A stretch of 64,000 nt of DNA from Amblyomma americanum (taxonomy: Eukaryota; Arthropoda; Arachnida; Ixodida; Ixodidae): NCBI RefSeq assembly GCF_052857255.1, contig NC_135502.1:156164599-156228598 (forward strand), given 5' to 3'. The notes under the pieces are model-generated. The model saw only the letters and a program-made list of their open reading frames with translations. It was not told the origin of the DNA and did not search any database. Made by a program: the position numbers and the translations under genes. Positions within the stretch are counted from its first letter, which is position 1. Each line of letters opens with the position of its first letter. Of the stretch, positions 2,476 through 44,587 are shown in pieces.

Positions 2476-5400
2476 TTAAACAGACCGTCTGGGATGGAAT
2501 CGCTTGAGGCGGGCTACATGCACCACCTGAGATTGGCGTGACCGTCGACCACTAGCAGTTAGTCGTGCTATAACGTAATTAACGTCACTTATGCACTCCA
2601 ACACAACAAATGGTCCAGTGTAGTGGGATAGCAGTTTCTGACACAGACCACGCTTGCGTAGAGGGGTCCACAACCACACAATGTCACCAGGAACATAAGA
2701 AACTTCTTGGTGTTGGACGTCGTAGCGGTTCTTGGAACGCTCTTGCGAAGATAAAATTCGAACGCGGGCAAGCTGGCGAGCTTCTTCAGCTCTGCAGAGT
2801 GTGGTCGCAAGAGAAGGTTCATCGTGGATGAAAAATGGTAGCATGGTGTCAAGGCCGCAGCGAGGCGAGCGAGCATAGAGCAGGTAAAAGGGGCTGTAGC
2901 CAGTTGTCTCATGTTGCGCGGTATTGTACGCATGAGTGATGAACGGGAGTACGCCATCCCAGTCCTTATGATCTGCAGCGACGTGCATGGCAAGCATGGT
3001 GATGAGCGTACGATTAGTGCGTTCTACCACACCGTTCGTTTGGGGATGATATGGCGTGGAGTGGCGAAAACTGCAGCTGCTGAGGTGGAGAAGTTCTTCA
3101 ACAACGTCCGCTGTAAATTGACGTCCACGGTCGCTAATGAGAACTGCAGGAGGGCCGTGCCGAAGAATGACGAATCGAAGTAAGAAGTTAGATACTTCAG
3201 ACGCAGTAGCAACTGGTATCGCGGCTGTCTCACAATAACGGGTTAAGTGGTCTACGCACACAAGAATCCATCCATTTCCTTTAGAGGATCGTGGGAAAGG
3301 TCCAAGGAGGTCAATGCCAACTTGCTCAAACGGGGCTGTTGGAGGTGTGATTGGCCGCAATTTGCCCGGTGGACTTGAAGTCGGCAGCTTAAAGCGCTGG
3401 TATTGCACACAGCTGGCTACATAGTGCTGGATGGTTGAACGCATGTTAGGCCAGTAAAATCGTTGTTGTGTGCGGTGGAGTGTGCGTGTCACTCCCAAGT
3501 GCCCAGACGTGGCGTCGTCGTGCATCATTTCAAGAACTGTGATGCGTAGGCTTTCGGGTACGACAAGAAGCATGCGTGCTCCTCCAGAAGCGAAATTCTT
3601 CTTATAAAGCAAACCGTCGCGAATGCAAAAAGTATTCTTTACAGAATCTTGAGCGGCATCAAACAAAGAGGTTAATGTTTGGTCCTTGCGTTGCTCAGTT
3701 CGAAAAACTTGAAGATCGGGGAAGGCTTGTGAAAGTGACGACAAGTATTCATCAAAGTTGTCTGCGTCGTCCTCAGTCGTTAGAAGCGGCAAACGGGAAA
3801 GACAATTGGCATCTGAGTGTTTACGGCCGCTTTTATGCACAACAGTGAAATTAAATTCTTGTAGGCGCAAAGCCCATCGAGCAAGCCGGCCACAGGGGTC
3901 ACGAAGACTCACTAACCAGCAAAGCGAGTGGTGGTCGGTCACGACGGTGAAAGCATTCCCGTACAGATAGGAGCGGAAGCGCTGTACAGCGAAAACAACG
4001 GCGAGACATTCTTGCTCAGTAACCGTGTAATTTCTTTCGCTCTTACTCAACGAACGGCTGGCATATGCTACCACGTGCTGATCGTGACCATGGCGTTGTA
4101 TAAGTACAGCGCCGATACCGATACCACTTGCATCAGTGTGCACTTCAATTGGTGCAGATGGGCAGAAGTGGCGTAGGATGGGGCCCGAGGTCAAAAGAAA
4201 TTTCAGATGCCGGAAAGCTGCGTCACATTCGCTGGTCCAATTGAACGGTGCATCTTTATGTAGCAAACACGTGAGTGGGTAAGCGATGTCCGCAAACCTA
4301 GCTATAAAGCGTCGAAAGTACGAGCAGAGCCCTAAAAAACTCTGCAGCTCTTTCACTGATTGAGGCACCGTAAAACTTTTGACAGCTTCGATTTTCTTTG
4401 GATCTGGTCGAACACCTTCTTTATCAACTAAATGACCAAGAACAATTGTTTCACGGTTCCCAAAATGACATTTCTTGGAATTGAGGATAAGGCCAGCTCG
4501 TTCCATGCAATCAAGCACAATATCCAGACGGCGGTTGTGCTCACTAAACGTTTTGCCAAAAATTACAACGTCGTCCAGATAACATAAACAAATTTGCCAC
4601 TTGAGGCCACGCAGGATTGTATCCATGAACCGCTCGAATGTTGCAGGTGCATTACATAATCCGAAAGGCATAACGTTGAACTCGTAAAGTCCGTCTGGTG
4701 TAATGAATGCCGTTTTTTCCCTATCTGCAGCGTGCACGGGGATTTGCCAGTAGCCGGATCTCAAATCAATAGAAGAAAAGTATGAAGCGGAGTGCAGACA
4801 ATCAATTGCGTCATCTATACGTGGAAGCGGGTAGACGTCCTTCTTCGTGGCCGTATTTAAGCGACGGTAGTCAACACAGAACCTCCATGTGCCATCTTTT
4901 TTCTTAACAAGGATAACTGGAGCCGCCCAAGGACTGGAGGATTCTCGAATTATGCCTCGCTTTTGCATCTCTTGAACTTGGTCATCTATTAACTTACGTT
5001 CAGTGGCTGAGACTCGATAGGGCTTCTGGCGTATAGGAGGTGCGGAGCCGGTGTTGATCGTGTGATGAATACGACTGGTAGGCGGTGGTGTTGAATCGTC
5101 TTTGGCAAAGTCGAACACGAACACGTGTTTCAGAAGGAGTTCCACTAGAGTGCGACGCTCGGTTGGGGAAAGAGCCTGATTAATCATAGCCTTAACTTGG
5201 GTCTCCATATCTCTTTTCACGTGCTGCTCACTGACAGAGTTGGTTAACGCCGCGACGAAACCTGACACACCTTCCTCGAAACGGGCGAGTTTGAGGCCCC
5301 GGGGCAACACAGCTGGCTCTTCAGAGTGGTTCACTGTCCACAGCTCGGTACGGCCTCTCACCACGGGAACGACGCAACGAGGCACGACGATACTCTTCTT

Positions 5401-5943
5401 AGAGCAGGCGAGTGTCGTAGGCTCTACCACAGCTTCAAAAGATTCGCACTGATTGTGAATAGAGGAAACCCGCACGAATGCTGCAGAGAAAGCTGGTACA
5501 ATAGTATCTTCTTCCACCGCAAATGCTCCAAAATCCGGTGTCGAGTTATCCACAAGAGCTGAAAGTAACGAAGAATTCAAAGCAACTTCTCCCGTACGAC
5601 AGTCTAAAGTTGCACCACACTCTTGCAGAAAATCAATCCCAAGAATCACATCATGCGTTGACCGTGGTAGCACTGCGAATTCTGTTCTAAACGTTAGACC
5701 ACCAATAACAACATCCGAAGCACAAACACCAAGTGGAACCAAAGGTTCACCACCGACACCACGGAATAACGCTGCACGGTCACCACTAAACATCACTTTC
5801 CTACCTAAACGATTCTTAAACCTCAAACTCATAACGGATACGGTAGCACCAGTGTCCACAAGAGCCATTGTTTTCACACTATCAATAAACACTTCCAGTT
5901 TGTTCTTCAACATAAACACGGGCAGAGGTAGATTGGACGTCAT
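2476..5943 (-). CDS. pol: Gypsy-1 pol polyprotein (PR-RT-RNase H-IN)
   Basis: 1155 codons without interruption. Aspartic protease: LVDTGATVSVMS with the catalytic Asp at residue 30. Reverse transcriptase spans roughly residues 300-490, with PVILVKKKDGTWRFCVDYRR and the catalytic CYLDDVVIFG block. RNase H spans about 590-710 (VHTDASGIG; TEQECLAV; VTDHHSL). Integrase follows from about 810, with a His-His-Cys-Cys finger, then D (VGIDLLGPF), D (LISDRGRQF) and E (GVVERTNRTL). The finger's second Cys is replaced by Tyr848 (codon at 3400-3402), while the decayed relative at 43 kb keeps Cys there. The frame stays open upstream of this Met to about 6216, overlapping gag, so the real start is probably the frameshift site and not this ATG. 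The protein would copy the element's RNA and insert the DNA. Confidence 0.93.
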   Translation of the reverse strand: MTSNLPLPVFMLKNKLEVFIDSVKTMALVDTGATVSVMSLRFKNRLGRKVMFSGDRAALFRGVGGEPLVPLGVCASDVVIGGLTFRTEFAVLPRSTHDVILGIDFLQECGATLDCRTGEVALNSSLLSALVDNSTPDFGAFAVEEDTIVPAFSAAFVRVSSIHNQCESFEAVVEPTTLACSKKSIVVPRCVVPVVRGRTELWTVNHSEEPAVLPRGLKLARFEEGVSGFVAALTNSVSEQHVKRDMETQVKAMINQALSPTERRTLVELLLKHVFVFDFAKDDSTPPPTSRIHHTINTGSAPPIRQKPYRVSATERKLIDDQVQEMQKRGIIRESSSPWAAPVILVKKKDGTWRFCVDYRRLNTATKKDVYPLPRIDDAIDCLHSASYFSSIDLRSGYWQIPVHAADREKTAFITPDGLYEFNVMPFGLCNAPATFERFMDTILRGLKWQICLCYLDDVVIFGKTFSEHNRRLDIVLDCMERAGLILNSKKCHFGNRETIVLGHLVDKEGVRPDPKKIEAVKSFTVPQSVKELQSFLGLCSYFRRFIARFADIAYPLTCLLHKDAPFNWTSECDAAFRHLKFLLTSGPILRHFCPSAPIEVHTDASGIGIGAVLIQRHGHDQHVVAYASRSLSKSERNYTVTEQECLAVVFAVQRFRSYLYGNAFTVVTDHHSLCWLVSLRDPCGRLARWALRLQEFNFTVVHKSGRKHSDANCLSRLPLLTTEDDADNFDEYLSSLSQAFPDLQVFRTEQRKDQTLTSLFDAAQDSVKNTFCIRDGLLYKKNFASGGARMLLVVPESLRITVLEMMHDDATSGHLGVTRTLHRTQQRFYWPNMRSTIQHYVASCVQYQRFKLPTSSPPGKLRPITPPTAPFEQVGIDLLGPFPRSSKGNGWILVCVDHLTRYCETAAIPVATASEVSNFLLRFVILRHGPPAVLISDRGRQFTADVVEELLHLSSCSFRHSTPYHPQTNGVVERTNRTLITMLAMHVAADHKDWDGVLPFITHAYNTAQHETTGYSPFYLLYARSPRCGLDTMLPFFIHDEPSLATTLCRAEEARQLARVRILSSQERSKNRYDVQHQEVSYVPGDIVWLWTPLRKRGLCQKLLSHYTGPFVVLECISDVNYVIARLTASGRRSRQSQVVHVARLKRFHPRRSV

Positions 5944-5981
5944 CGACTCGCCGGCGGCCTCACCTCCATCGGCCGCGCCTC

Positions 5982-7190
5982 CTAGTTTCCCGGAGGCGGA
6001 GGGGATGCACGACGTCGAGGAGAAGGTGACCGCCGTTGGCGCTGAGGTGGCGGCGTCACACTGCGGTCAGATGCGGGTGATGAACTCCGCAAATTGCTCG
6101 GACGGTACGGGTCCCAAGCGGACGTTGGGGGTCTCTGCTGCGCGGTGTGCAGTTGCCCGTAAGTATTCGCCGGGGGTTGGCAGTCTTGAGAAGTTGGGAA
6201 ACGACGGCGGCAATATCTAGCGATATGCCCTGCAATGCCACACCGGTAGCACAAAGGTTGAGAGCGCCAGCGACCGCCATAAGAGTCCTGGCGAACAAAG
6301 TCGCGACGTTGGCTGAAGCCAGGATCTCGCTGCTGACGAACCACGTCTTCTGGGTAGGTGGGCCTCCTTTCTGTCGGCTGGTGGCGATAACGTTGGGCAA
6401 TGTTCCGATCGTCCATGGGCAAAGTGCCGTTGGGTGGAGCCCACGGAGTCGACAGGGCGGCAACATCTTCCTCCGGTGCAGAACTGTGCCGCAGATATTG
6501 TGTGTGGCAGAAGGTATCCCGGGATCTGGACAATTCCTCGCGCACAATCTCTCGAATCATATCAGCCATAGAATTTGGAGGACTGGCTTCAACACTGGCT
6601 ATAGAGGTGACATTGGCCAATCTTCCGAATTTAGGGGTGATTCGACGCAGCTTAAGAGCTTCAAATGTTCTGCAATGTTCTATAACGTCAGCGGTGGTGC
6701 TCAGGCTCTCTTTGCTAATCAGGAAATTGTAAACATCTTCCGCAATTCCTTTTATAAGGTGGCCGACTTTGTCTTCTTCAAGCATTCTTGAGTTAACTAG
6801 CTTGCATAACTTTAAGATGGCTTCGATGTATGCCGTGCAAGTTTCTCCGGGTACTTGCGCGCGGTGAAGCAATGTCTGTTCCGCACGCTTCTTCTTTGCC
6901 GATTCATCCCCAAACATTTTCTTTATCTCGGTCGTAAAGGTAGCCCATGAACTCAGTGTATCCTCATTATTGTCGAACCAGTCAAGGGCAGTGGCGGCAA
7001 GGAAAAACACAACGTTAGCCAGTTTAGTAGCAGCGTTCCATCGATTGTATTTGCTCACCCGCTCGTAGTGTTTCAGACACTCGTCAACGTCCTCTTCAGG
7101 TTTTCCAAAAAATGTGCGGGGCTCTCGATAATGTGGCCAGTTGTTCGCTGTGGATAGCCCGGGTTGCTCAGCATTGTCGTCTCCAGGCAT
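5982..7190 (-). CDS. gag: Gypsy-1 gag (capsid-nucleocapsid)
   Basis: 402 codons. Residues about 25-190 are a Ty3/Gypsy-type retrotransposon gag domain (FFGKPEEDVDECLKHYERVS; AATALDWFD; ETCTAYIEAIL), which forms the particle shell. Near residue 320 is one zinc knuckle, CYRCGIAGHIARYC (C-X2-C-X4-H-X4-C), for RNA binding. The C-terminus is rich in Arg, Ser and Pro. The Met at 7190 lies about 90 bases inside the 5' LTR boundary, the first good start. The stop at 5982-5984 comes directly after a GGGAAAC heptamer. Pieces of the same gag, with the same N-terminal and C-terminal blocks, recur at 48885-49338, 53684-53885 and 55815-55996. Confidence 0.9.
   Translation of the reverse strand: MPGDDNAEQPGLSTANNWPHYREPRTFFGKPEEDVDECLKHYERVSKYNRWNAATKLANVVFFLAATALDWFDNNEDTLSSWATFTTEIKKMFGDESAKKKRAEQTLLHRAQVPGETCTAYIEAILKLCKLVNSRMLEEDKVGHLIKGIAEDVYNFLISKESLSTTADVIEHCRTFEALKLRRITPKFGRLANVTSIASVEASPPNSMADMIREIVREELSRSRDTFCHTQYLRHSSAPEEDVAALSTPWAPPNGTLPMDDRNIAQRYRHQPTERRPTYPEDVVRQQRDPGFSQRRDFVRQDSYGGRWRSQPLCYRCGIAGHIARYCRRRFPTSQDCQPPANTYGQLHTAQQRPPTSAWDPYRPSNLRSSSPASDRSVTPPPQRQRRSPSPRRRASPPPPGN
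5985..5991 (-). promoter_or_regulatory. Candidate -1 ribosomal frameshift site (GGGAAAC) at the gag stop
   Basis: On the minus strand the last gag codons read G-GGA-AAC in the correct phase, followed at once by the TAG stop. GGGAAAC fits the X-XXY-YYZ slippery rule. Pol lies in the -1 frame relative to gag and is open across this point (about 6216 to 5943). A short GC-rich stem can form downstream: minus-strand CGGCC (+ 5971-5975) with GGCCG (+ 5955-5959). Sequence and phase are seen directly; use as a frameshift site is inference. Confidence 0.75.
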
Positions 7191-7260
7191 GTCCGATGGC
7201 AGTGGTGGGAAGCCTGCGAGTCTACGGCTCCTTCGGTAGATGGAATGCTCCGTGGTCGAT

Positions 7261-7278
7261 ACCCGGCACCTCTCACCA
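7261..7278 (-). promoter_or_regulatory. Gypsy-1 candidate primer-binding site
   Basis: Three bases inside the 5' LTR, the minus strand reads TGGTGAGAGGTGCCGGG. The plus-strand complement ends CTCTCACCA and is preceded by CGATACCCGGC, like the 3' half of a tRNA (T-loop, T-stem, acceptor and CCA). I could not name the tRNA. Confidence 0.55.
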
Positions 7279-7281
7279 ACC

Positions 7282-7454
7282 TGTTACGTGCTTTGCACGC
7301 ACGGGGGTTTATTCAAAGAGGGGACCGGTCGAAGCAGGATGGAAGCAGGAAGCCTAGCAGCGTCCTTTAGCTCTCTCTTTTTCTTCCTCTTTCTCCGCGG
7401 GTCAGTCCTTCATCTTCTGCTTCTTCCGTCGAGGTTCTGTGGAAGCACGTTACA
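7282..7454 (-). repeat. Gypsy-1 5' LTR
   Basis: 173 bp, identical to 2269-2441. It would supply the promoter of the minus-strand element. No clear TATA box was seen. Confidence 0.95.
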
Positions 7455-8041: not shown

Positions 8042-10261
8042 ATGACCTCATACTTCACGCCTTCAAATCTAAAATCTTATCTTTCCCCTTCTTGCCGATC
8101 TCTTATTCATTTCAATGCGCGAAGTCTACGAAAACATTCGGACGACTTTGTTAACCTCTTATCAGCCACTCAACACCAATTCTCCGTAATCTGCGTGAGC
8201 GAAACTCGGCTGTCGGATGCCGACAAGAACCTGTGCACGTCGCCTTCATATAGCGCTGAATAGTGCCATCGTAGCGATAGCGCGCATGGTGGCACAGCGA
8301 TCTTTATTTCCGCTTGCTATCACTATCGCCGCCGACTTGATCTATCGATAAAAGTGGGAAATTGTGAATCTGTATGGATAGAACCAGACAAATTTTTTTT
8401 CACCAGATATAAAAAATATAGTCATTGGCTGCATATACCGGTCACCCTCGTCCCATGTGAAAGATTTCTGCTCAGCTCTGCACTCAGTCTTAGGTGTATT
8501 GTCAATGGAACGCCAAAATGGTATAATAATGGGTGACATCAATATTAACACACTAGATCCTGACTGCTCCTGATAAGTAGATTATATGGAAGTTTTAATT
8601 ACTCATGGCTTCGAAAATTTTATCAACATTCCCACACGCATTTCCGCTACTGGTTCAAGCTCCCTCATAGATCACGCTTTATCAAACCTAATGTCCACCC
8701 CTGATGCAGGTGTCATAGAAGCTGATATAACAGATCACTACCCTATTTTCATACAGTTGGATAACTGTGTTAACTATGTTAGGCACACTCAGTTCATTAA
8801 AAAAAACATTAAACTCTGCATTATTACTTGAACGGTTTGCTATCATTGACTGGTCAGTGGTTAAGGCTCTGGATGACGCCGATATTGCATTCAGCAAGTT
8901 ATTTCTTATTATCACTAATACAATCGATGAGTGTTCTACTATATATATTTGCAATAAGAAGTTCTCAACTCCGAATAATCCCTGGATGACTTCTGGCCTT
9001 CTAAGCAGTTTGAGAAAAAAAGATGACCTCTACAGAAAATGCAAAAAGCAACCATTCAACTTAAGGCTTTTAGCGCGTTATAAGAAATATTCTAATGTAT
9101 AAGGTTTGTTCCTTAGAACAGTAAAGAGAAAGTACTATGAAAGAGAAACAAATCACGCTGTAAATAACGTTCATAAGCAATGGAAAGTTGTTAATTCCTT
9201 CCTAAACAGAAACAACTCGAAAGCTCCCAAATTAAAAATAACTTCCGGTAAGGTAACATATACCAATCCCTCAGACATTGCTGAAGCCTTTAGTGATTCA
9301 TTTGCTTTAGCCTCAGGAGTAATAAATACTGCCGCTAATCAAACATTACAACCATCTCCTCATACCATTTTCCTTTCCCGTATCTCCCCTGATGAAATCG
9401 GCAAAATAATATGCAACCTGAAAGACGCCAGTCCAGGTCTCGATAATATTCAATCATCCCATATTAAGTTTTTTGCGCATCTCATTTGCGATGTCCTCGC
9501 CATATTGTCAATCTGTTCTTGAAATCGGGCACTTTCCCTACTGCATTGAAGAAGACAAAGCTAATTCCAGTCTTCAAATAGGAAGATAAACAAATCATTT
9601 CTAATTACCGCCCAATCGCTATTTTATCGTTTTTAAGTAAAATTATTGAAAAGCCATTGTTAACAGAATAAACGATTACTTAACAAAATTTGACATTCTC
9701 TCACTTAACCAGTTCGATTTCAGAATGGGATTCTCCACCGAATTAGCTGTGATCGCTCTCACCGATAAAATGAAATTCTACATCGACGCAGGTGACTTTG
9801 CTGGTGCATTATTTATTGTCCTTTGCAAAGCTTTTTATTCCCTCAACCATGCTATTTTATTCAATAAGCTTGACGCTGTCGGCATAACTGGGCCTCCACT
9901 TTCGCTAATCAGAAGCTATTTATTTTAATAGAAAACAAGCCGTGTTCATCTCGGGAACATACTCAATATTCAAGACTACTAATGTTGGAGTTCCCCAAGG
10001 TTGCCTTCTTGGCCCTCTTCTATTCTTATTTTATATCAATGACCTCTCTAGGTGTCTTTATAATTTCAACTGCTATCTTTATGCTGACGAGACAACAATC
10101 TTAACCTCAGATTCACATATAAATAAAGTGGTCGATAAACGTAACATTGATGCGCGGAGTGTATTCGATTAATGCAGAAATAATTTGCTGTTCATTAATG
10201 CATACAAATCCAGCTTTAAAGTTTTTAGGTCACCTCAAAAAATTCTTTGCGAAAACCCGTC
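8042..10261 (+). pseudogene. LINE-A ORF2: endonuclease and reverse transcriptase, broken
   Basis: ORF2 of the LINE, read in several frames. 8042-8263 gives the start of an APE-type endonuclease (SLIHFNARSLRKHSDDF; ICVSETRLS). 8586-8831 gives its end (SSLIDHALSNLMS; ADITDHYPIF). RT follows: LKDASPGLDNIQSSHIKFF near 9420, NYRPIAILS near 9605, GFSTELAVIALTD near 9725, GVPQGCLLGPLLFLFYINDL and YLYADETTIL at about 9975-10095. In the last motif the usual YADD reads YADE. The frame breaks at the Gmr1-like element (10262) and resumes at 17623. At least five frameshifts or stops make it non-functional. Confidence 0.8.
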
Positions 10262-10552
10262 GGTAGGGTTCGGCGCGCTGTCGCATCTTTTTGTACATGT
10301 GTTCCGAATATTCCGCGAGAGGGCAGCGACCTAGGCTACGCGTCCGGTTTTGTTTTATTTTGTTTTACTTTGGTGCACGCCGTTAGAAGGAGACTCATAC
10401 CTTTTTGGTTAGTCTCCCCATTCGTTCTTGCGGTTCCCTTAGCCGCTCCGGACGGCGGGGCTATCTGCCGGCCTCGACCTTGGACCCCTGTCCCCTTGCC
10501 GAAGGATTGCTAGACCACCTGGAAGGAACTCGGGGGTAAGGGAAAACGGTGA

Positions 10553-10589
10553 CATCAGTTTTGAGCTTTCCTATTCGTCAAAACTGATG
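10553..10589 (+). repeat. Perfect 12-bp hairpin in the Gmr1-like LTR
   Basis: CATCAGTTTTGA and TCAAAACTGATG form a perfect inverted repeat around a 13-base loop. The same hairpin is intact in the other LTR at 17185-17221, although the LTRs differ at about 3% of sites. Confidence 0.8.
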
Positions 10590-10880
10590 AGCCGCAGTTA
10601 GCAGTTTACTTTTACGTGTGGAAAGGGGTGCGAGCATCTTCGGGGTGTACCTGCGAAGGGAGCCGCGCCCGGGGGCTTTTGTCTCTAGCGACAGCTAGCT
10701 GGCAGGCGCTCGGTCTGGGCGAGTGCGGAGGGAGTGGCCGTTGAGAGCTGGTGCGAGGCGCGCCAGTTTGACTGTTGGGACGCGGTGTCCCTCGCCTCTG
10801 TGCAGGTGGTCGGCTAGGCCAGCCGCGGGTAGTTATGGCCGTATACTGACTTTTGTTTGTACCCATCTGTAAATAGCCTG

Positions 10881-10887
10881 TATAAAA
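10881..10887 (+). promoter_or_regulatory. TATA box of the Gmr1-like LTR
   Basis: TATAAAA in the context GCCTGTATAAAAGTTCG, about 110 bases before the LTR end, a usual place for an LTR core promoter. The 3' LTR has the same sequence at 17499-17505. Confidence 0.6.
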
Positions 10888-11202
10888 GTTCGTTTCTCTA
10901 TAAATCGCTTCGCCTGCAAGTCGTATCATCGCGAAGCCTTCAAGCAGTGCATCCAGTTTCTGGAAATCACCGGACCAACACCACCGGCAAACCTTTACTG
11001 GCGCAGTCGACAGTACTGGTGCTCTGCAGCGGCCCCGAGGAACGGACGAAGACCGACGAAGAGAACGACGAAGTTCGGCATCCAAGGCGAGAACGACAGG
11101 CTACGGCGGTACGAAGGTACGAACCGCATCGGGCGTGAAACGCCGAAGACAAGGCCTTCAACAGACGGAGTGGTATCCCCGAGAAACGGCGGCAGTTGGA
11201 AG

Positions 11203-12073
11203 ATTTCATTTCATTTCATTTATTTACCCTCAGGGCCGTTAGGCGTTGCAGAGGGGAGTGGGAATAGCATATAAGAACAAAAAACAAAAACAGCAGCTAA
11301 AACATTTGAATATAGTTACAGCACACATTGATTTAAGATTAGTAACAGCACTAGCAAAAGGCAGCATTACACAAAACAAACCACAAAAGAAAACAGCAGC
11401 GAATAAAATAAAACATTGATATAGACAGAGACTTATATAAAATTAGTAACAGCGTTTCGAAAGGCAGCAGTATCGGTAATTTCAACAATATCGTGGGGAA
11501 GGTGATTCCAGCTGACACAAGTTCTGGGTATGAATGAATCGTGAAAACATCTCGTGCGACAAGGAGGGATCCAAATTTTGTGGCGGTGATCCATGCGTGC
11601 TGAAATATATGATGGTCTTCTTAACAACCTCTCTTTAAGATAAAGATTATGATAAATTTTGTGAAAAGTACATAATGAAGCTATTGACCTGCGATGGGAA
11701 AGGAGCGGTAGGGAAAGGTTAGCTTTCATGGCAGTTACACTATTAGTACGATGATAGTTGGAAAGTATGAAACGACAACCGCTGTTTTGAACTGATTCTA
11801 AGTCAGAAATGAGAGATTCGACCCCAGGGTTCCACACCGATGAAGCATATTCCAATTTAGAGCGGACCAAAGTTTTGTAAAGTAGTAGTTTTAATGAACT
11901 CGGTGCACATGAAAAATTTCTGCGAAGGTATCCAAGGATGCGGTTAGCGTTATATATAATGTAGTCAACATGAGGTTTCCAAGACAGGTTAGAAGCGACA
12001 TGAACACACAGATATTTATAAGACGACACAGTTTCAAGAGTGATGCCATTAATGCATTATTGCCATTAATGCA
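11203..12073 (-). mobile_element. 5'-truncated CR1-type LINE inside the Gmr1-like leader
   Basis: The minus-strand frame 12029-11433 (198 codons) is the C-terminal end of a LINE ORF2 downstream of RT: SYKYLCVHVASNLSWKPHVD, KTLVRSKLEYASSVWNP, SCVSWNHLPHDI. The 3' UTR ends in an (AAATG)n-like tail at 11203-11225 on the minus strand. The 5' end is cut beside a direct repeat GCCATTAATGCA at 12045-12073. It belongs to the same family as the 4.2 kb LINE at 24236-28476, sharing the 3' UTR block TACCCTCAGGGCC near its tail. The element interrupts the leader between the left LTR and gag. Confidence 0.8.
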
Positions 12074-12303
12074 CGGCCTTCAGCGGACAGAAAACCGCAT
12101 CCCCGTGTAAAGGCAGCTGCTAGCGGCTTCAGTCGGCACCTGGTCCGAGGTCGCCGCCATTCCTGCCCGAAAAGAGGACCCTGAGCGCAGCTCCGAGTGA
12201 GTTCCCTGGTTCCTTCGTTTTCTTAGCGGTCACTGTTTGACTAAGGCTTGCGTAGTTGATGATAACCCGATTTGGTCATCTTAACCCCGACAAGGCATCT
12301 ACG

Positions 12304-13260
12304 ATGGACAGCGGTAGTGACAGTGGTGACAGAGGGGACGGTGGAGACAGGGGCAGCAACGAGGCGTCGGGGTCACGGCATGTCCAAAACATTGAGAAAG
12401 AGTTGGAATTGTATGAAAAAAAATAAGAGCCTTAGAGCTCGAGATGAAAATCATGCGTGCTCGAAGCCAGAATGCGGCGCCTTCCGAGGGCTATCGGTTG
12501 AGACAGTACGCTAAGCTACTCGCCGGCGCGTTCCCCAAATTGCCGGCAGACGGTGAAGTACTCGTCTGGTTTGAGTCAGTGAAATGCTCGCTCGTGGTAC
12601 AACGTGCCGAAGGAACATTGGGCGCAGCTTGTGTTCCCGGTGCTGGCTGAGCGGGTAGCCTACTTATCGACACGGTTCACCGCAGAGCAGCACAGGGACT
12701 ATGACAAGTTGAAGGCGGTGGTCCTAGACGAGTTGAAACTTTCAGCCGCAGAGTATCAAAGGCGGTTTTCTGGGGCCACCAAGCGCCGCGAAGAAACATG
12801 GAAGGCTTTTGTCACACGCGTCCAGAGTTACTTAAACTTTTATTTAAAGTCACGATGCGTGTCGTCTTTTGACGGATTATTGAAGCTACTGGTTGCCGAC
12901 CAGCTCAAGGCGGGGCTATCAGAAGAAGCACATAAATAAGTCAAGCTGCGCGAGGGTGAGAAATGGCTGAATGCGGATGAGATAGCTGCCCTGCTACAGA
13001 CATAAGAAGAAGCCGCCGGGGAGAGAAGCGCTCAGAGGAAAGCCGACAGCTTTAAAGGTTTTGACACGCCCCCAAAACCGAGAACTGAAGCAACACCTAT
13101 GCAGAAGCATGGAGCAGAGCGAGGAGACAGAATAGCCGCAGTCAGGCCAGGAGGAGAAAAGAAAAAGGTATCGCGGTCGGGTGGCTGTTTCCGATGCGGA
13201 AGCTGGAGACATGTTGTCGCGAACTGCCCATTTGATCGTGAGAACCCAGCTGATAGACGA
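12304..13260 (+). pseudogene. gag: Gmr1-like gag with SCAN-like capsid and zinc knuckle
   Basis: Gag begins with an acidic Ser/Gly-rich leader at the ATG 12304, then shifts frame twice (near 12420 and 12600). From 12604 to the integrase the frame is constant, with stops at 12937 and 13003. The region 12751-13020 reads [20 protein letters not shown], then [29 protein letters not shown] and ADEIAALLQT. That order matches the SCAN domain of vertebrate zinc-finger proteins, a capsid-derived dimerisation fold reported to come from Gmr1-like gag. A zinc knuckle CFRCGSWRHVVANC follows at about 13186-13227. Gag would form the particle and bind RNA. The copy cannot be translated through. Confidence 0.75.
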
Positions 13261-13329
13261 GAGAGTCCGCCGCGCGATGATAGGCTAACGGCACGCGTGT
13301 CCACCCATGCCTTGCAATCCACGCGTCCA

Positions 13330-16300
13330 GCGCTCAGGGACATTAAAATCCGCTGTAGGGAAGCGGTTATTGGCGCTATTGTGCACACCGGTGCAGATAT
13401 CACCGTAGTGCGCGAAAGCCTTGTACCTGAGGAGTTCGTATCCCCACATGGGACGATCGATCTCGTCTCCGCTTTCGGAGAGAAGGTAGAGGCAAAACTG
13501 GCAGTAGTTCTGTTGGCGCTGTGTCGGGGCGCTCCCCTGATCAAAAATGTGGACGATGCGACACCGGTGTTGTGTGCGCTCACCGACAAGCTCACACAAG
13601 CCGACTGTCAAATTTCCGCAGACGCATGGGAACAGCTGCACGACTCGGGCAAGACGGACAGTGAGGGTCTCGTGCAGGCGGTGGGAACTCTGTCGCCGCC
13701 GTCTGAAGACAGACCAGATAGATCAGGGCCAGACGTGGGCACCGAGCTCGTCCTGGCGTTCGCAGACGAAACCCTGCCCCAGCAGACAGTTGACAGTAAT
13801 GAGGTCGAGCCATCACAGCCGGGCGGCACGGCTGAGCTTAGCGGGGCACAGAAGTTTCGCGTGGAGCAGCATGAGGATGAGACTCTGCGTCAGGCCTGGC
13901 AGAACGCCAAACAAGGAAAGGCCGGCATGTCTATCGTAGACGGAGTTTTGTATCATAAAGACCAGGTGCTAGGCCAAGGGGTACAGCAGTTAGTACTGCC
14001 AAGATTACGGCGCGAGGCCGCACTCAGCCTAACACACGAGTCCTATTAGGGGGGACACCTGGGCTTTCGCAAGAATGAAGCTCGCGTAAAGTACAGTTTC
14101 TACTAGCCGGGCATGGAGTCGGATATTCGCAAACACTGTGACAGCTGCCATAGCTGTCAAGTGCGTTCAGACCACCGGCGAACCGACAGGGTACCGATAA
14201 CGCCTCTCACTCGCCCGAAGTTTCCCTTTCAGAAAGTGAATGTGGATATCATAGGTCCGATTGAGCCATCGTCTGGCCGAGGACATCGGTACGCGCTTTG
14301 CATAATAGATCTGTGCACGCGTTGGCCAGAAGTAGTCTGCCTAAGGTCTTTGTCCGCCAGGACAACCTGCGACGCGCTGTTTTCGGTGTTTAGCCGGACT
14401 GGGGTTCACGAGGTGGTGTGCTCAGACTGCGGCACCAATTTCACAGCCGCACTTACGAAGGAGTTCCTCGAAAGACTCGGCTGTACCCCGCGCTTTTCCG
14501 CTCCCAATCATCCGGAGAGCAATGGGGCGGTGGAGAGGTGGAACAGAGACTTTAAGACCATGCTCTCACACGTGATCGAAAATGAACCGAAAGACTGGGA
14601 CAAGTTCGTTCCCTTTCTTCTTTGGGCCTATCGGGAGGTGCCACACGACACCACTGGCGTGTCACCCTTCCGAATGCTTTACGGCCGAGACCCAGTGGGA
14701 CCACTCGCTATCCTGAAGCAAAGCTGGGCAGGAGACATTGAGGTACCCGGGGAGCTCGCGAGTGCTCCTGTTGAGTATTTGAAAAATCTGAAAGCACAGC
14801 TCGAGATCGCGGCCGACATTGCAGAGCTAACGACTAGAAAACAGCAAGAGGCGTACTCGTCGCACTACAACAAGCACGCAATGGTAAAAACCTTTCGCGA
14901 AGGTGAGGCGGTCCTCGTCTTTGATGACAAGAGGCCAGGGAAAATGTACCCCAAGTGGCTAGGGCCGGCGGTGGGGACAAAAAGGTACCGCGAGCACTCG
15001 TACTATGTGCAGATGAGTGACGGTCGCCGCATGCTAGCACACGCAAATAAGCTACGCCACTACGTCGGGAAGGTAGGTTCGGTGAGCGTCATATTTGAGG
15101 ACGACTGCGATTTTGGAGAAATCGAATATACCCCGCGCGCAAGCAACGTCCCGAAGGACAGGGTAATGCCTACGCCGGATAAAACAAGCCACTTAGACAG
15201 GGATGCAGCGGAGCTGGTGCACGCCACGTTCGAGCAGCACCAGGCATTATTTGCGAACGAACCGTCGATCGCGCGCGTGGGCGAGCACAGCATAAAGCTC
15301 GCGGAGGGGGCAACTCTAAGGAGGGGCCACCCTTATAGGATCCCAGAGGCTTTAAAAGACGAAGTAGCGAGGCAAATTGATGAGCTCCTTGCACAAGGCC
15401 TCATCTACCCCTGTAAAAGCCCTTCTGCACACCCGATCGTGTGCGTTCCCAAAAAAGGCGGGTCGGTACGTCTTTGCATACACTACCGAGCGCTGAACGC
15501 GGTGACCGAGACGGACGCATTTCCTATGGTTTGCCCCCAGGAGGTGATCATGCGAGTCGGAGCCGCGAGGTTCATAACACTTCTGAACCTCAGGCGCGGC
15601 TATTGGCAGGTGCCACTCGCTAAGGATTCTCAGCTTCCGACAGCGTTCTTCTCGCACCTAGGTCAATTTGCCTGGCGGGTGATGTCTTTCGGTCTTAAGA
15701 ACGCAGCGGCAACCTTCCAGAGGAACATGAACCAGTTGCTAGCCGGGCAGGAAGAATACGCTTGCGACTATCTAGACGATATCGCCGTATTCAGCCAATC
15801 TCTAGAAGCGCATATCCATCATTTAAATCGGGTGTTTTGCACTCTGGAGGAGGTGGGCCTGCACGCTAGCTGGGAGAAGTGCCAGGTGGCGATGCCTTCA
15901 ATCCGCTACCTGGGGCACGTTGTCTGCTCCGGCCGGCATGGTCCAGCCAAAGAGAAAATGAGGTCATCGCAGGAATTCAATTCCCTAAGACAAAGAAAGA
16001 ATTGAGGAGCACCCTTGGGCTGTGCGGCTACTACCGTAGCTATGTCCCGAATTTTGCAGGAGTCGCTCTGCCACTAATACGCCTGACAGGAAAAGGCGTG
16101 CCGAACAAAATACCGTGGCCAGATGACGCGGACAAAGCCTTGAAAGCCCTGAAGAAAGCTCTAAGCGAGGCGGTTTCACTGACCACTTCGGACCCGCGAA
16201 AGCCGTATCTGCTTTTTACAGACGCGTTGGCAGTAGCAGCCGGTGCCTGTTTAGCGCAGCTTTCTGACAACGGCACTGAGGCGCCGATAGCCTTCGCCAG

Positions 16301-16598
16301 TCACAAGTTCACACCATCGCAGATGCGGTGGGCGGCAATCGAGAGGGAGGCATTCGGGGTAATCTGAGCATTAAAAAAGTTTGAGACGTGGGTGTTCGCC
16401 GCCACCGTGACTGTCATCACTGACCACAATCCGCTCTCCTTTCTTACGAGCAGTGTGCCTCAAAGTGCAAAGCTTACGCGCTGGGCTCTTGCGCTCCAAC
16501 GCTACAATGTTACCATTGAACATCGCAGAGGAGCCGACCACGCTAACGCAGATGCCTTGTCTAGAATACCCAGTGCACTGGCTGACGTCCCGCAGTGA
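13330..16598 (+). pseudogene. pol: Gmr1-like pol in the order PR-IN-RT-RNase H
   Basis: Protease: the active-site block at about 13378 reads IVHTGADITV, with His where the catalytic Asp belongs. Integrase: His-His-Cys-Cys finger at about 14035-14170 (HESY, GGHLGF, CDSCHSCQ), then D (VDIIGPIEP), D (CSDCGTNF) and E (GAVERWNRDF) up to about 14550. The usual integrase C-terminal region follows. RT: about 15290-15960, with PSAHPIVCVPKKGG, GLKNAAATFQRN and the catalytic DYLDDIAVFS near 15770. RNase H: to 16598, with [26 protein letters not shown] and a final DALSRIP. Stops lie at 14047, 14104 and 16365, and a frameshift near 15900-16005. Integrase and RT lie in one uninterrupted frame of 630 codons, so the unusual order is not an assembly of separate insertions. 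Confidence 0.88.
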
Positions 16599-16893
16599 CC
16601 GCTGGGGATAGTGGACCAAGGAACTGTGTGCATGGACAACATACTCGTTGTACTCAAGAAAGGCGCAAGTCGATTGAACGAAAGTGTGGGATTTCTGTGC
16701 GTGTTTTTTGTCTATATTTTGTGGACCTTAGTAGCATGTATCTGTGTGTGTGACGAAGGGTCGCAGCATGCGGTCTCGCGGGCTCCGGTTGCTTGCTCGT
16801 GCAGAGGTACTCAACCGCCACTTGCCGAACCCTTTTTGTTGTTTGTTGCCTCTGCTTATCTCTGAATAGATTAGCTGAGTCTTGGGGGGAAAG
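16599..16893 (+). other. Gmr1-like 3' untranslated region and polypurine tract
   Basis: No open frame of interest. It ends in CTTGGGGGGAAAG (16881-16893), the purine run abutting the 3' LTR. Confidence 0.65.
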
Positions 16894-17617
16894 TGTAGGG
16901 TTCGGCGCGCTGTCGCATCTTTTTGTACATGTGTTCCGAATATTCCGCGAGAGGGCAGCGACCTAGGCTGCGCGTCCGGTTTTGTTTTATTTTGTTTTGC
17001 TTTGGTGCACGCCGTTAGAAGGAGACTCCTGCCTTTTTGGTTAGTCTCCCCATTCGTCCTTGCGGTTCCCTTCGCCGCTCCGGACGGCGGGGCTATCTGC
17101 CGGCCTCGACCTTGGACCCCTGTCCCCTTTCCGAAGGATTGCTAGACCACCTGAAAGGAACTCGGGGGTAAGGGAAAACGGTGACATCAGTTTTGAGCTT
17201 TCCTATTCGTCAAAACTGATGAGCCGCAGTTAGCAGTTTATTTTTACGTGTGGAAAGGGGTGCGGGTATCTTCGGGGTGTACCCGCGAAGGGGGCCGCGC
17301 TCGGGGGCTTTTGTCTCTAGCGACAGCTAGCTGGCAGGCGCTCGGTCTGGGCGAGTGCGGAGGGAGTGACCGTTCAGAGCTGGTGCGAGGCGCGCCAGTT
17401 TGACTGTTGGGACGCGGAGTCCCTCGCCTCTGTGCAGGCGGTCGGCTAGGCCAGCCGCGAATACTGACTTTTGTTTGTACCCACCTGTAAATAGCCTGTA
17501 TAAAAGTTCGTTTCTCTATAAATCGCTTCGCCTGCAAGTCGTATCATCGCGAAGCCTACAAGCAGTGCATCCAGTTTCTGGAAATCACCGGACCAACACC
17601 ACCGGCAAACCTTTACT
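16894..17617 (+). repeat. Gmr1-like element 3' LTR
   Basis: 724 bp, from TGTAGGG to CTTTACT, about 20 differences from the 5' LTR by eye. Keeps the hairpin (17185-17221) and TATA box (17499-17505). Followed by the CCGTC duplication. Confidence 0.9.
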
Positions 17618-17622
17618 CCGTC

Positions 17623-24000: not shown

Positions 24001-24486
24001 TCGAGAAACTATGTTTCACCAATTAGCCCCACAACGTGTTTTGCTAAATGAACTTTAACTATATATATTCATATACCAATAATGCAGCTAGTAATAAACT
24101 GATTCAACTAGTGCTACTGCAAATACGTCAATGATATCCAAAGATTCATTAACTCTGGGAGCAACTTTTGTAGCTTGTTTAAGTTAATGACTTTGGTCAA
24201 TGAATTTTATTTTACAATCTAACAATCCTCAAAGAGTTTATTTATTTATTTATTATTTATTGTACCCTCAGGGCCAAAGGCATTAAAGAGGGGAGTGGGT
24301 TTGGGATAAACAACAATGAAATAGGTATTACAAAGGAATTTCCTCCAGAATCAATAAAATAACAACATCCAGAAAACGTAAATAGTATAGAAACAATGTA
24401 TACCATACAGTGAAACAGATAAAACACACAATCACCTTACTTCAGAATAGACAATATTAGCTACAGCGTTATGAAAGATTTTATTA

Positions 24487-27232
24487 TCAGGAATGGCTGC
24501 AATATCGGGGGGGAAGGCGGTTCCAATCCACAGATGAGCGGGGAAGACAAGACTGAAAAGAAGATTCGGTGTGGCATGTTGGGATGCCAACCTTGTGGCG
24601 TTGATCGATGCGACATGAAATGTATTCGGGGGGTGACATGAAATAGTTGTGAAGCGCAACGTGATGATATAGCTTGTGAAATAGCGTTAGGCGACCAATT
24701 TTGCGGCGAGATTGTAAAGGTGGGAGTGAGACGTTAGAGTTCATGGCTATGATGCTTGCCGTACGGCTGTAATTTGAAAGAATGAAGCGAACGGAATAAT
24801 TTTGGACTAATTCCAAGGAATATGTGAGGTTTTCATGCGTAGGGTCCCATATTGATGCTGTGTATTCTAGTTTAGGACGTATGAGTGTTTCATAGAGTAG
24901 AAGTTTAAGGAAAGAGGGAGCGGTAGAGAATTGGCGACGTAAGTATCCTAACATGCGGTTAGCGTTATTAATCACGTAGTCAATATGAATAGACCATGTT
25001 ATGTTTTGAGTGATATGAATTCCTAAGTACTTATATGTTTTTACCCAATCAAGAGGAGTGCCATCTATATAATACGAAGGAAGACCGTTAGATGTCCGTG
25101 AAACACGCAAAGCTTTACATTTATTAGTGTTTAATTTCATATTCCATGTAGTGCACCAGTTTGACACCAAATTAAGGTCTGACTGGAGAGAGTCAGTATC
25201 GTTGACGTTATTTATTTCCCGAAATATTACACAATCGTCAGCAAAAAGGTGAATGTTAGAAGATATGGCAGAAGGAAGGTCATTAATATAGATTAAAAAT
25301 AGGAGTGGCCCAAGGACCGACCCCTGTGGAACACCAGATAGCGCGTTAGCAATTGATGAATTGGTGTTATTAGCATGCACAAATTGCCAACGGTCTAGAA
25401 GGAAAGATTTAATCCATTGAAAGACGTTAGGATCGAGATTAAGATTGCTCAGTTTATGTAGTACCAATTTATGGCATACTTTATCAAAGGCTTTGGAAAA
25501 GTCCAAAAAAATTTCAGTCAGCGCAAGATGAGTTGTCAAGTATGCGGTACAGCTTACCAGTAAAGGCAAGTAATTGAGTTTCACAGGAGTATGTTTGACG
25601 AAAACCATGTTGTTCAGGCGTGAAAAATGAATTCTCATCGAGAGAGGTAACGACATTCTTGAAAATGGTATGTTCTAGTAATTTGCAGCATGTGCTGGTG
25701 AGCGAAATGGGACGAAAGTTTTGAGGGCAGTGCTTACCACCGGACTTGTGAAGTGGAACCACCTTCCCCATTTTCCAGTCGATAGGAAGGCTTGCTGTGT
25801 CGAGTGACTGTTGAAAAAGTTTGGTTAGTATAACTGAACTATAAGCACAAGTATTTTTTTCGATTTTAGCGCTAATCGCATCAGAACCAGGTGAAGAATC
25901 ATTTTTTAAAGATTCGATTAATTTGGCTACACCAGGTGGATCGACAGTTATGGGTGGCATTGTCGGGAACCTGTGGTGCGGTATGAATTTAAGATAAACA
26001 CTTGAAATGGAAGAAAAGCTTTCAACGAATATGTCATTCAGCACGGGAGCACAAAGATCATTGGGGATAAGTTTACCGGAGGTGTCTTGTAGTCTAATTA
26101 ACGGGTTGTTCGCAGGATGTATAACGCGCCAAAAATTTTTAACACTAGTTTTCAAAATTGTTGGCAATGTGGCAGACAAAAAGTTATTCTATGTAAGTTT
26201 AATCGCGTTGACGTAAGCGTCTAAAGCAGACTTGTACTTCGCCCATCGCGCATTAGATGGTGAAAGCTTCGCGCGGCGGTATAGACGTTTCTTTTTGTTA
26301 GATAATCGTCTAATGTGAGAGATGTGCCATGGTGCTTGTGGATTAGAGGTGACGATGCGCTTTGGGATATACTTATCAGTTAGTTCGTGAACCTTTGTTT
26401 TGAATTATATCCAGTTATCCTCGACAGAGCAGTAGTCTGAGTTTGCAATAAATTAATCAACAAAAGTGCCCAGCTCATTGTTAATAGCGGTAAAGTTGGC
26501 GCGTTTGTAATGTAGAATGATTTTTTTATTTTATACACTTTTGGACGTGGTATACTAATGCAAAAATTGAGCAGAACGTGATCGCCTATGCCTGGAAGAT
26601 ATGTTATGTCAGTAGCTAACTCTGGATTAGTTGTTAGAACTAGATCGAGAGTGTACGAAGCGTTATTTACCGTCCTTGTGGCTTTTGTAACTGAGTTAGC
26701 GAAAATGTGGCGCATAGTTTTAAGAATTCTTAGCTTGATGCGAAGGGGGAGATGAAGAAGGCGGCTGAGCAGTCCATAAAATAGTTGGGAAATTAAAGTC
26801 CCCAGGTATAAAAAGCGGTGATGAAGGAAATCGTGCGCGAACAAGATTTATAGCGTCGTGAAGTTCGGTAGTGAATGTATTCGAATAAGAATGAAAACGG
26901 TAACAGACGCCAATATCCAATTTGAGAAGACCTATCACTATTGACGCAAAAATTAGTTCTAGTTCGCTGAAGACTTGGATACACGAAGATGGAATGTCTT
27001 TGGAAATGGCAAGTAAAGCACCACCACCACGCTTGGCTGTTCTATCGTAACGATATACCGAATAGCAATGAGGGTTATGGAATATTTCGGAATCTGACAC
27101 ATGCGTTGGGAGCCAGGTTTCTGTTAGCGCTATAATGTCAGCTGAGCATGTGTCTATGGCAGAAGATAAAGAAGTATGCTTGTTAAGTAGGCTTCTGGCG
27201 TTAGTATAAAGAGCTGATATCGATGATGACAA
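24487..27232 (-). pseudogene. CR1-type LINE ORF2: endonuclease and RT, broken
   Basis: 27232-26720 gives the APE endonuclease start: ALYTNARSLLNKHTSLSSA, ALTETWLP, KRGGGALLAIS, PGDFNFP. 26844-26380 gives its end (LDLVLTTNPEL; PGIGDHVLLNF, where GDH stands for the usual SDH). RT begins in 26179-25514 (SLKNDSSPGSDAISAKI; WKMGKVVPLHKSG; NFRPISLTSTCCKLLEH; EQHGFRQTYSCETQL). It continues in 25656-24487 (FLDFSKAFDKV; GVPQGSVLGPLLFLIYIN; LFADDCVIFREI; KYLGIHITQNITW). The catalytic FADD is intact. Frameshifts near 26840, 26380-26180 and 25560 split it. It would nick the target and copy the LINE RNA there. Confidence 0.85.
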
Positions 27233-31485: not shown

Positions 31486-32559
31486 AGCTTCCTTGGGCAT
31501 AGATCACAATGGAGTTAATAAATGTACATCCAAAAAAATGTGACGTGACAACTATAGAACTGAATATGGTCAGGTAATGACAAAAAGATAAGTGGGCCAT
31601 ATATGCCCTATTCGCTATGCGAACATCTCCACCAATCTGAAAACAAAAAAATAAAAATAAAAAGGCACCAAGTGTCACTTGCTGAAGAAATAAACAGCCT
31701 AAACACTAGTATACCTTCATTCTCAGTAAAGGAGCCACCTGTCAAAAGGTAATGGGTGTGGCAGGCACGCAGCAACACAATTATATAGTGTGCGCCATCC
31801 TGACTGGCTCAGGTTGTCGTACCTTCCATGCAAACAACTTGCGAGATGAATTATAAAGAAGCATTTGCCACTTCATTCTTGAGTTGTATTCAACTGCAGT
31901 TTACACAACACACAAAAGAAAATACGTACTGCATCTCAAAGGGACACTAAGGACATGTCAATGCAATTTCTGTTCTCAGTAAAAATATGCTGTATGGCCC
32001 TTTCTAGCCATCCTCTTCAGCAGCAAAATATATATTTATTGTTTGGAAACCTAGATTTAAAAATGCGATTTTTTTCTGGTTACTTCATTGAAATTCATAT
32101 CTAGACTTAAAAAATGCTCTCATCCCTGCTACAAAGAGAATGGTGGGAAACCAGTCTTGGCACCACCACAATTTCCTTCAGAAAAGGGATGTATTCAAAT
32201 TTTTACCTTTACCAGCTTAAAATGTTTTTCAGTAAAAGTAATCACTTCGTCATTGGAATGCAGAAATCTGTTGACACATAGCAACTGCAATTTGTCTTCA
32301 GTGTCCATTTAAACATGGTACCTAACACTGCACCTCTGGTATTCACACATTGACAAAAAAGTTAGATATGAGCTGTCATGAACTGAATTGGTTGGTCATG
32401 TAAAACACTGGTTGCAAAGAGAGTTTACAACCAAAAATGCTTTGGTTAACGATAAGACCAGTTTTAAAATACCTTTTAATGCAACACATATACGATTTAC
32501 CACAGGTTTGTGAGCGTTGTTTATTGGCATTTCAGTCAGCAGTGGTTTGCAACAAATCC
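31486..32559. other. Unassigned DNA
   Basis: No gene or recognised repeat seen before the CR1 LINE begins. Confidence 0.4.
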
Positions 32560-34408
32560 ATTGACCTGTGTACAATTAAGGTTTCTATATTACGGTATCA
32601 TTCATCTCAGACGCCGAATCAAAAGGCTAAAAAAGCATTATGCACAGCAGAGCACAATCAACCATGTAAGAGAAAACCTCGCCCTTGCTGTACGCCGTTC
32701 AAAAGATTATTATTTCAAAACAACTCTGCCGAACTTCATAAAAAACGACCCGGGTAAATTCTGGCGCCACATTAGCGATAAAAAAGCCCCTATATCAGAA
32801 ATGACTATCAACGGTACAACGGTTACCAATCAGCCTGCCATTGCTCACCATTTTAACAATTACTTTCACAGTGTATTTTCTAAACCAAAACTGTACGATG
32901 CACCAAGCACAACTTCAGCACATCCATCTGAAGTTAACTTCATCTCGTATGATGGTGTCGTTTCAATGTTACTAAACCTGAAAACTAAATCATCCCCAGG
33001 GCCCGACGATATTCCTAACGGTTTTCTTCGGAGGTATGCTGAATCTCTGGCCAGGTTTTTGGTTATTATATTTCGCGCGTCATTGTTAACCGGGTGTGTA
33101 CCTGAGGACTGGAAGATAGCCCGAGTCGTACCTGTATTTAAAAAAGGCGACCGCCTTCAGGTGACCAATTATCGACCTATATCCTTAACGTCATCTTGCT
33201 GCAAATTAATGGAACATATTGTCGCAACTAGCATTAATGAATTCTTAGATCGCAACAACATTCTGACAGATTACCAGCATGGTTTTCGCAAAGGGTTTTC
33301 CACAGTAACTCAACTACTTTCAGTTATCCATTCATTTGCGGCATCACTTGACAATAACAGCCAGATTGACGCGATCTTTCTAGATTTCAGTAAAGCGTTT
33401 GACAAAGTTCCACACCACAGCCTTATTCTAAAACTAAAAACTATTGGACTTCCGCCTATATTTATTTCCTGGATAAATGATTATTTAACTAACCGGAGTC
33501 AACATGTTTCAATCGGTCGTCACCAGTCTGGCTGTCTCCCAGTCCCATCAGGTGTGCCACAGGGAAGCGTACTGGGGCCACTACTCTTTCTAATATACAT
33601 TAACGACATCATCGGTGAAGTTTGTACTGGCGTACATATTCGATTATATGCTGATGACTGTGTTTTATTTCGCGATGTTAGCAATGAAAACGATCAGAAT
33701 GACCTACAAAATACGCTTACTAATATTGTAGAGTGGTGCAAGCGCTGGGACATGACACTGAACGCAGATAAAAGTGTTTCTCTTCGCATAACTAACAAAA
33801 TAAACGCTCTACAATATGCATATAAATTAGAATCATCACCATTGCAACAAGTAGCGTCCGTAAAGTACTTGGGTGTAACACTTACTAATAACCTTTCCTG
33901 GAACTCTCACATAGATAACATCTGTTCACTCGCATTCCGTAAGCTTTGTTATATAAGGCATAAACTTCGAAACGCCCCCGCTAACGTTAAGCTCTTAGGT
34001 TACAATGCTCTAATTAGACCCAAGCTTGAATATGCTTGCATAATTTGGGACCCGTATACTAAGTCTAACATAAGAAAGCTCGAGAACGTTCAAAGGAAAG
34101 CGATTAGATTCATATATTCAAAATATCTACCCACTGACTCCCCCTCAGACTTGATGCGTGCTAACGGTATTGAAGAACTACAGGTAAGAAGACGAAATTT
34201 TCGTTTGGATTTTCTTTCATTACTTCTTAATAATAAACTCAGACTTGACCCTTCTGCTTATCTTTCCCCAATGCCAACACGGAATACACGACACTATCAC
34301 AAAGCTCTTTTAAAACCATATTTTGCCCGGACTAACTCATTCAAGTTTTCCTTTTTCCCACGCACCATATCTGACTGGAACTCATTAACCGAACCAAATC
34401 AACCCTGA
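32510..34408 (+). CDS. CR1-type LINE reverse transcriptase, open but 5'-truncated ORF2
   Basis: 632 codons without a stop; the first 20 or so are flanking sequence, so the Met at 32510 is not a real LINE start. RT blocks in order: MLLNLKTKSSPGPDDIPNGF, WKIARVVPVFKKGDR, NYRPISLTSSCCKLMEH, QHGFRKGFSTVTQLL, FLDFSKAFDKVPHHSL, GVPQGSVLGPLLFLIYIND and the catalytic RLYADDCVLFRDV. The post-RT part has KYLGVTLTNNLSWNSHI, ALIRPKLEYACIIWDPY and FSFFPRTISDWNSL. All RT motifs including YADD are intact. The copy lacks its endonuclease and promoter and should be immobile, but its open frame argues for a young insertion. Confidence 0.88.
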   Translation: MSVVYWHFSQQWFATNPLTCVQLRFLYYGIIHLRRRIKRLKKHYAQQSTINHVRENLALAVRRSKDYYFKTTLPNFIKNDPGKFWRHISDKKAPISEMTINGTTVTNQPAIAHHFNNYFHSVFSKPKLYDAPSTTSAHPSEVNFISYDGVVSMLLNLKTKSSPGPDDIPNGFLRRYAESLARFLVIIFRASLLTGCVPEDWKIARVVPVFKKGDRLQVTNYRPISLTSSCCKLMEHIVATSINEFLDRNNILTDYQHGFRKGFSTVTQLLSVIHSFAASLDNNSQIDAIFLDFSKAFDKVPHHSLILKLKTIGLPPIFISWINDYLTNRSQHVSIGRHQSGCLPVPSGVPQGSVLGPLLFLIYINDIIGEVCTGVHIRLYADDCVLFRDVSNENDQNDLQNTLTNIVEWCKRWDMTLNADKSVSLRITNKINALQYAYKLESSPLQQVASVKYLGVTLTNNLSWNSHIDNICSLAFRKLCYIRHKLRNAPANVKLLGYNALIRPKLEYACIIWDPYTKSNIRKLENVQRKAIRFIYSKYLPTDSPSDLMRANGIEELQVRRRNFRLDFLSLLLNNKLRLDPSAYLSPMPTRNTRHYHKALLKPYFARTNSFKFSFFPRTISDWNSLTEPNQP

Positions 34409-34921: not shown

Positions 34922-35234
34922 ATTTATTATAATTGGTTTTGGGGGGAAAAGAAATGGCGCAGTGTCTGTCTCATATATCGTTGGACACCTGAACCGCGCC
35001 GTAAGGAAGGGAATAAAGGAGGGAGTGAAAGAAGGCAGGAAGAAAGAGGTGCCGTAGTGGAGGGATCCGGAATAATTTCGACCACCTGGGGATCTTTAAC
35101 GTGCACTGATATTGCACAGAACACGGACGCCTTAGCGTTTTTCCTCCATAAAAACGCAGCCGCCGCGTTGGGGTTCGAACCCGGGAACACCGGATCAGTA
35201 GCCGAGCGCCTAACCACTGCGCCACCTCGGCGCG
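34922..35234 (-). mobile_element. Ruka-like tRNA-derived SINE
   Basis: On the minus strand it begins with a tRNA-like head: A box TGGCGCAGTGGTTAGGCG and B box GGGTTCGAACCCC. It continues with the core CAGTGCACGTTAAAGATCCC and CAGGTGGTCGAAATTATTCC, and ends in a tail containing CCAATTATAATAA. Very similar to the copies at 57804 and 63116. Right after it (35235-35300) lies another SINE 3' fragment (GAATTTCGACCACTTGGGGT), suggesting insertion into an older copy. Confidence 0.88.
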
Positions 35235-44565: not shown

Positions 44566-44587
44566 GATGGCGTAGAGCAGAGATGCA

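Follow-up and report, generated by a model that had tools for sequence, protein, structure and literature searches.

A decayed, very probably Gmr1-like Ty3/Gypsy retrotransposon with integrase ahead of reverse transcriptase in a tick genome

The window analysed here, a 64,000-nucleotide stretch of the Amblyomma americanum genome, contains on its plus strand a 7.4-kb LTR retrotransposon (10262-17617). The element is bounded by a 5' LTR of 738 bp (10262-10999, plus) and a 3' LTR of 724 bp (16894-17617, plus), and is flanked by a CCGTC target-site duplication (10257-10261 and 17618-17622), as an earlier note on this DNA had described. An alignment of the two LTRs, 724 columns long, contains 21 mismatches and 2 gap events (97.1% identity, K2P 0.030), and the LTRs terminate in ACT. 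The 3' LTR begins TGTAGGG directly after a polypurine-tract-like stretch, CTTGGGGGGAAAG (16881-16893, plus), and the 5' LTR differs at its first base. Adjoining the 5' LTR is a probable primer-binding site, TGGCGCAGTCGACAG (10999-11013, plus), which we take to fit the 3' end of a tRNA-Ser, the putative primer. Three tRNA-Ser-like sequences lie elsewhere in the window (35159-35232, minus; 57808-57882, plus; 63353-63427, minus), all with the printed anticodon act and two of the three reaching the Rfam tRNA cut-off. These may be genes, or else repeats derived from tRNAs, and were not used for the primer assignment. Between the primer site and gag sits a reversed piece, probably of a LINE, with approximate limits 11203-12080 (minus). 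It is similar to 24255-24316 and 24800-24988, which lie by a LINE-type reverse transcriptase (RT) frame at 24490-25674, and Pfam gave no match on the insert's own frame.

The window holds further retroelement sequence. A conventional Gypsy element occupies 2479-7283 on the minus strand, with a Retrotrans_gag frame preceding a 1196-aa pol frame that contains protease, RT, RNase H and integrase (INT), and with 66% identity to a Rhipicephalus pulchellus protein. Conventional Gypsy sequence also survives as two broken copies with RT, RNase H and INT in that order, at 42033-44567 and 49922-52109 (both minus), the former 58-70% identical to P0289, a relative of the 2479-6066 element. Outside the Gypsy elements there are four LINE-like RVT_1 frames, at 32480-34405 and 44606-47178 on the plus strand and at 24490-25674 and 62334-62990 on the minus strand, one of them adjoined by an endonuclease domain. 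At 38547-39492 (plus) lies an integrase remnant that matches the H2C2 zinc-binding domain and, weakly, the core; no RT was found beside it.

Within the element, all coding domains lie on the plus strand. Gag, interrupted by frame changes and stops, was located at 12259-13338 by tblastn with P0041, P0015, P0039 and P0060, and includes a zinc-knuckle motif at about 13186-13233. The protease follows at 13339-13467, where the frame 13006-14046 gives an RVP match just above threshold (E 4.9e-4; 20.8 bits against a cut-off of 20.7). Next comes the integrase (13927-15063; Pfam and tblastn with P0001 and P0003), comprising a zinc-binding region with two in-frame stops, a core at ~14224-14514 and a C-terminal part extending to ~15063. 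A linker (15064-15285) separates it from the RT (15286-15960; Pfam and tblastn with P0041). The RNase H (15966-16598) is in a different frame and contains a stop ending at 16367, with Pfam RNase H matches in frames 15870-16364 and 16368-16598 and further tblastn matches. The domain order is thus protease, INT, RT, RNase H, as the earlier note had read it; its span of 13330-16598 captured the pol part of an element whose gag lies further upstream. INT and RT share one stop-free frame of 632 codons (14107-16002; 630 had been claimed), in which Pfam recognizes H2C2, the rve integrase core (1.1e-13) and then RVT_1 (3.5e-27). Stops aside, gag, protease, INT and RT are in a common frame, 12598-15960. 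The domains are also of Ty3/Gypsy type as proposed, by RVT_1, by rve and by a best solved-structure match to Ty3 (7q5b, 1.1e-59); no Copia-type RT was detected in the element, for which Pfam reports RVT_1 only. In this element a pol of Gypsy type carries INT ahead of RT, an arrangement given as a trait of the Gmr1 clade in the accessible portions of two papers (PMC6238403, PMC3587641).

Judged by its reading frames and residues, this copy is dead. In-frame stops end at 12939, 13005, 14049 and 14106 in addition to that in RNase H, and the frame shifts near 12590, within gag, and a second time near 15960. In an alignment with 19 relatives, the protease of the copy is without an Asp that is invariant among them, and the RT motif that is LDL in the consensus is LNL in the copy, a change of one Asp to Asn; both Asp residues are presumably catalytic. 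The earlier description of LTR and pol anatomy stands, but it had left out this decay, the reversed LINE-like piece and the upstream gag.

LTR elements generally make RNA from the LTR, process Gag-Pol, carry out tRNA-primed reverse transcription and integrate. The parent element would have been transcribed from its LTR and, as the common frame suggests, translated as one Gag-Pol, whose pieces would have been cut apart by the protease. Reverse transcription by RT would have started at a tRNA primer, and INT would have placed the DNA copy in the genome with a stagger of 5 bp. We propose that, because the protease cut the pieces apart, the swapped order left the role of each enzyme unchanged.

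The same junction was found in proteins of other species. A protein search scored 7996 candidates and yielded 169 proteins at E <=1e-5, of which the best 120 were considered. P0001 matches the whole INT-RT frame at full length with 87% identity, a sequence match well above chance, while P0002 aligns as a single stretch through the junction (13447-16020) and P0003, from Ixodes scapularis, aligns over 13927-15960. The order INT, RT, RNase H is present in P0003, P0004 (Ornithodoros turicata), P0008 (Araneus ventricosus) and P0017 (Trichonephila clavipes). In Amblyomma americanum itself, LOC144115605 (P0060) holds gag, protease and INT within a single protein and matches 12598-14415 in one frame, with 93% identity over 606 columns, a match that points to a tick of or near Amblyomma as the host. 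Four gene models skip from INT to RNase H and P0041 is without INT; we read these as putative gene-model gaps. Because proteins of other tick and spider species cross the INT-RT junction, we conclude that the order is genuine, as the earlier note had maintained, and does not come from local rearrangement. A rearrangement or nested insertion of conventional elements might be suspected in a window rich in retroelements and in an element that itself carries an insert, but it is extremely improbable: a single open frame runs across the junction, one LTR pair with a matching duplication encloses the whole, and the relatives in other species in effect already refute it.

The sample was enlarged by a second search seeded with INT-first proteins and a third seeded with RT-first proteins, and comprised 362 proteins, of which 360 came from the searches and two are frames of the window. 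Among those with one INT and one RT, 146 were INT-first and 124 RT-first, totals that are not frequencies because of how the searches were seeded. Over 249 units, RT identity to the element of at least 50% occurred in 6 and INT identity of at least 50% in 12, all INT-first. In the 40-50% range there were 109 INT-first and 2 RT-first units by RT, and 32 and 0 by INT; RT-first units reached at most 43% RT and 39% INT identity. Among the sampled proteins, none in the element's family had the conventional order.

For phylogenetic analysis, 250 units with full RT and INT and a clean order were retained from the 362 proteins (130 INT-first, 120 RT-first; an earlier filter of the same proteins gave 130 and 101). 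From these, RT identity cuts of 0.68 and 0.62, together with forced rows, gave 45 tree rows, 22 INT-first and 23 RT-first; the forced row P0268 is missing from this set, and the RT-first sampling is thin, coming from one search seeded with three proteins. Gmr1 membership was judged by stand-ins, Xenopus P0178 and stickleback P0030 and P0121, as the Gmr1 element itself did not occur among the named hits, and the trees are unrooted, with no root inferred. In every tree the INT-first rows lay on one side of a branch. With the stand-ins as references, the separate trees agreed with the Gmr1-like reading of the earlier note for INT with its flanks (93/98; 93% of 200 bootstrap trees), and for RT recovered the same side with weak support (91/52; 92%). 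Joint trees gave 99/98 for the RT and INT cores and 100/99 for a longer set of RT-RNase H and INT with flanks, in each case in 100% of 200 bootstrap trees, and in both joint sets a single order change sufficed in 100% of these trees. Gmr1-like kinship is on these grounds very probable. The INT-first rows divide into a chelicerate-side lineage of 13 (five named rows from four species of ticks and spiders, seven without a host name, and the element) and a vertebrate-side lineage of 9 (stickleback, Xenopus and seven without a host name).

These data also bear on whether the INT-first order arose independently in chelicerates, so that the element works like Gmr1 while belonging to another lineage. 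AU tests, on groups picked after inspection of the tree, rejected on the core data a joining of either side with the window's RT-first clade (p 0.0074 for the chelicerate side, 0.0115 for the vertebrate side). On the same data, room for an independent origin is left by groupings of the chelicerate side with the Caligus/P0242 clade (p 0.211), with Salpingoeca P0290 (p 0.115) and with Cordylochernes P0243 (p 0.274), none of which was rejected, and the linkers of the two lineages differ. In contrast, all three groupings were rejected on the longer data (p 0.0032, 4.4e-7 and 0.0008), and the joint trees favor one change throughout. Since the longer set may align non-homologous tails, we prefer the core tree and regard a single origin as no more than probable. 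An independent origin is distinctly unlikely; the order change probably arose once, before the chelicerate and vertebrate sides split, as far as the trees can tell.

After the C-terminal part of INT, the chelicerate-side linker is mostly like VGVIFEDDxDFGEIxxxP, a form absent from the vertebrate-side rows. This linker may mark the chelicerate-side lineage; as evidence connecting the two sides it is of no help. A junction mark shared by both was sought with linker profiles at E<1e-3. The vertebrate-side profile matched 1 of 14 (13 chelicerate-side rows plus Physella), Physella alone, and also reached some RT-first proteins, P0284 and P0065 among them; the chelicerate-side profile matched 3 of 14 (13 vertebrate-side rows plus Physella). 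We therefore claim no shared linker mark. The Physella acuta snail protein, P0053, which bears the name K02A2.6-like, has INT ahead of a truncated RT and carries a vertebrate-side linker (E 7.5e-6); the accessible text of a mollusc survey names six known Gypsy clades as found, Gmr1 not among them (PMC6238403).

Gag offers a further comparison, as the SCAN domain is described as derived from the gag of a Gmr1-like element in the available parts of PMC3424704 and PMC4592553. The copy's gag has a weak SCAN match at 12583-12936 (E 0.072). SCAN was matched in 5 of 19 chelicerate relatives at E <=0.1, with a best value of 0.001 and, among the matches listed, below the Pfam cut-off; Xenopus P0178 and stickleback P0121 gave 4.6e-16 and 7.8e-6. 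No SCAN was seen among the best 25 of 40 families in 19 RT-first gag controls. Fourteen of these controls matched Retrotrans_gag, which is unsurprising because they were chosen partly for already bearing a gag model, so that only the absence of SCAN counts. The SCAN matches agree with Gmr1 kinship, for ticks weakly. If the kinship holds, the element would supply an outgroup from arthropods for the SCAN domain found in vertebrate transcription factors, which PMC3424704 traces to a Gmr1-like gag.

An alternative identity for the element is the Ixodes clade already described as Squirrel or Toxo. The accessible text of PMC4748124 names Mag, CsRn1, Squirrel and Toxo among Ixodes elements and reports two new clades that are likely Chelicerata-specific, and INT-first proteins are present in Ixodes. 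That text gives no domain order, but the lineages it describes have two ORFs, end in TG..CA and are flanked by a duplication of 4 bp, whereas our element has a common gag-pol frame, LTRs ending in ACT and a 5-bp duplication. By description, then, this identity is unlikely. There is a fair chance that the element stands for an undescribed chelicerate lineage. The fuller proposal is an INT-first Gypsy lineage that spans ticks and spiders, has not been described as one, and is sister to the vertebrate Gmr1-like elements, with its own linker and a diverged SCAN-type capsid; we rate it at slightly less than an even chance. If it is true, the domain swap would be older than the parting of the two lineages, or the lineages would have crossed between animal groups by horizontal transfer. 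The find presents the integrase-first order as a stable feature of elements in ticks and spiders rather than a vertebrate oddity.

Taken together, the findings describe a tick LTR retrotransposon of Ty3/Gypsy type, very probably Gmr1-like and decayed in this copy. The literature searched, mostly outside subscription journals and wholly outside Repbase, showed among the titles listed no report of Gmr1-like elements from ticks or spiders. The wider range proposed in the earlier note is a less strong claim than its wording suggests, since Gmr1-like elements from crustaceans and an annelid have been published. The copy adds a new group of hosts to a design already known. In their accessible text, four crustacean elements were called the first Gmr1-like ones described in protostomes (PMC3587641, 2013), Gmr1 is counted among clades occurring in several phyla (PMC8556966), and a frog genome contains about 200 Gmr1-like copies (PMC4131045).

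Among known systems, Ty1/Copia elements resemble this one in domain order only and differ in that its RT matches RVT_1 and Ty3. By description, in the portions available, the crustacean GyRex4, Gychoro2, GyMaja1 and GyLiva4 (PMC3587641) and the annelid family LGF3 (PMC8220671, 2021) are protostome elements placed in the Gmr1 clade by their authors. The vertebrate stand-ins share INT before RT, have gag, protease, INT, RT and RNase H in one protein, and occupy the sister side of the branch; the best of that side is about 43-47% identical to the element in RT and about 35-46% in INT, with a different INT-RT linker and with clear SCAN matches where that of the element is weak. Closest are the INT-first proteins of Ixodes, Ornithodoros, Araneus and Trichonephila, which have the same order and are the nearest rows in the trees, along with the gag-protease-INT protein P0060 of Amblyomma americanum itself; these tick and spider proteins bear generic names (uncharacterized protein, transposon 17.6/412/opus) rather than that of Gmr1.
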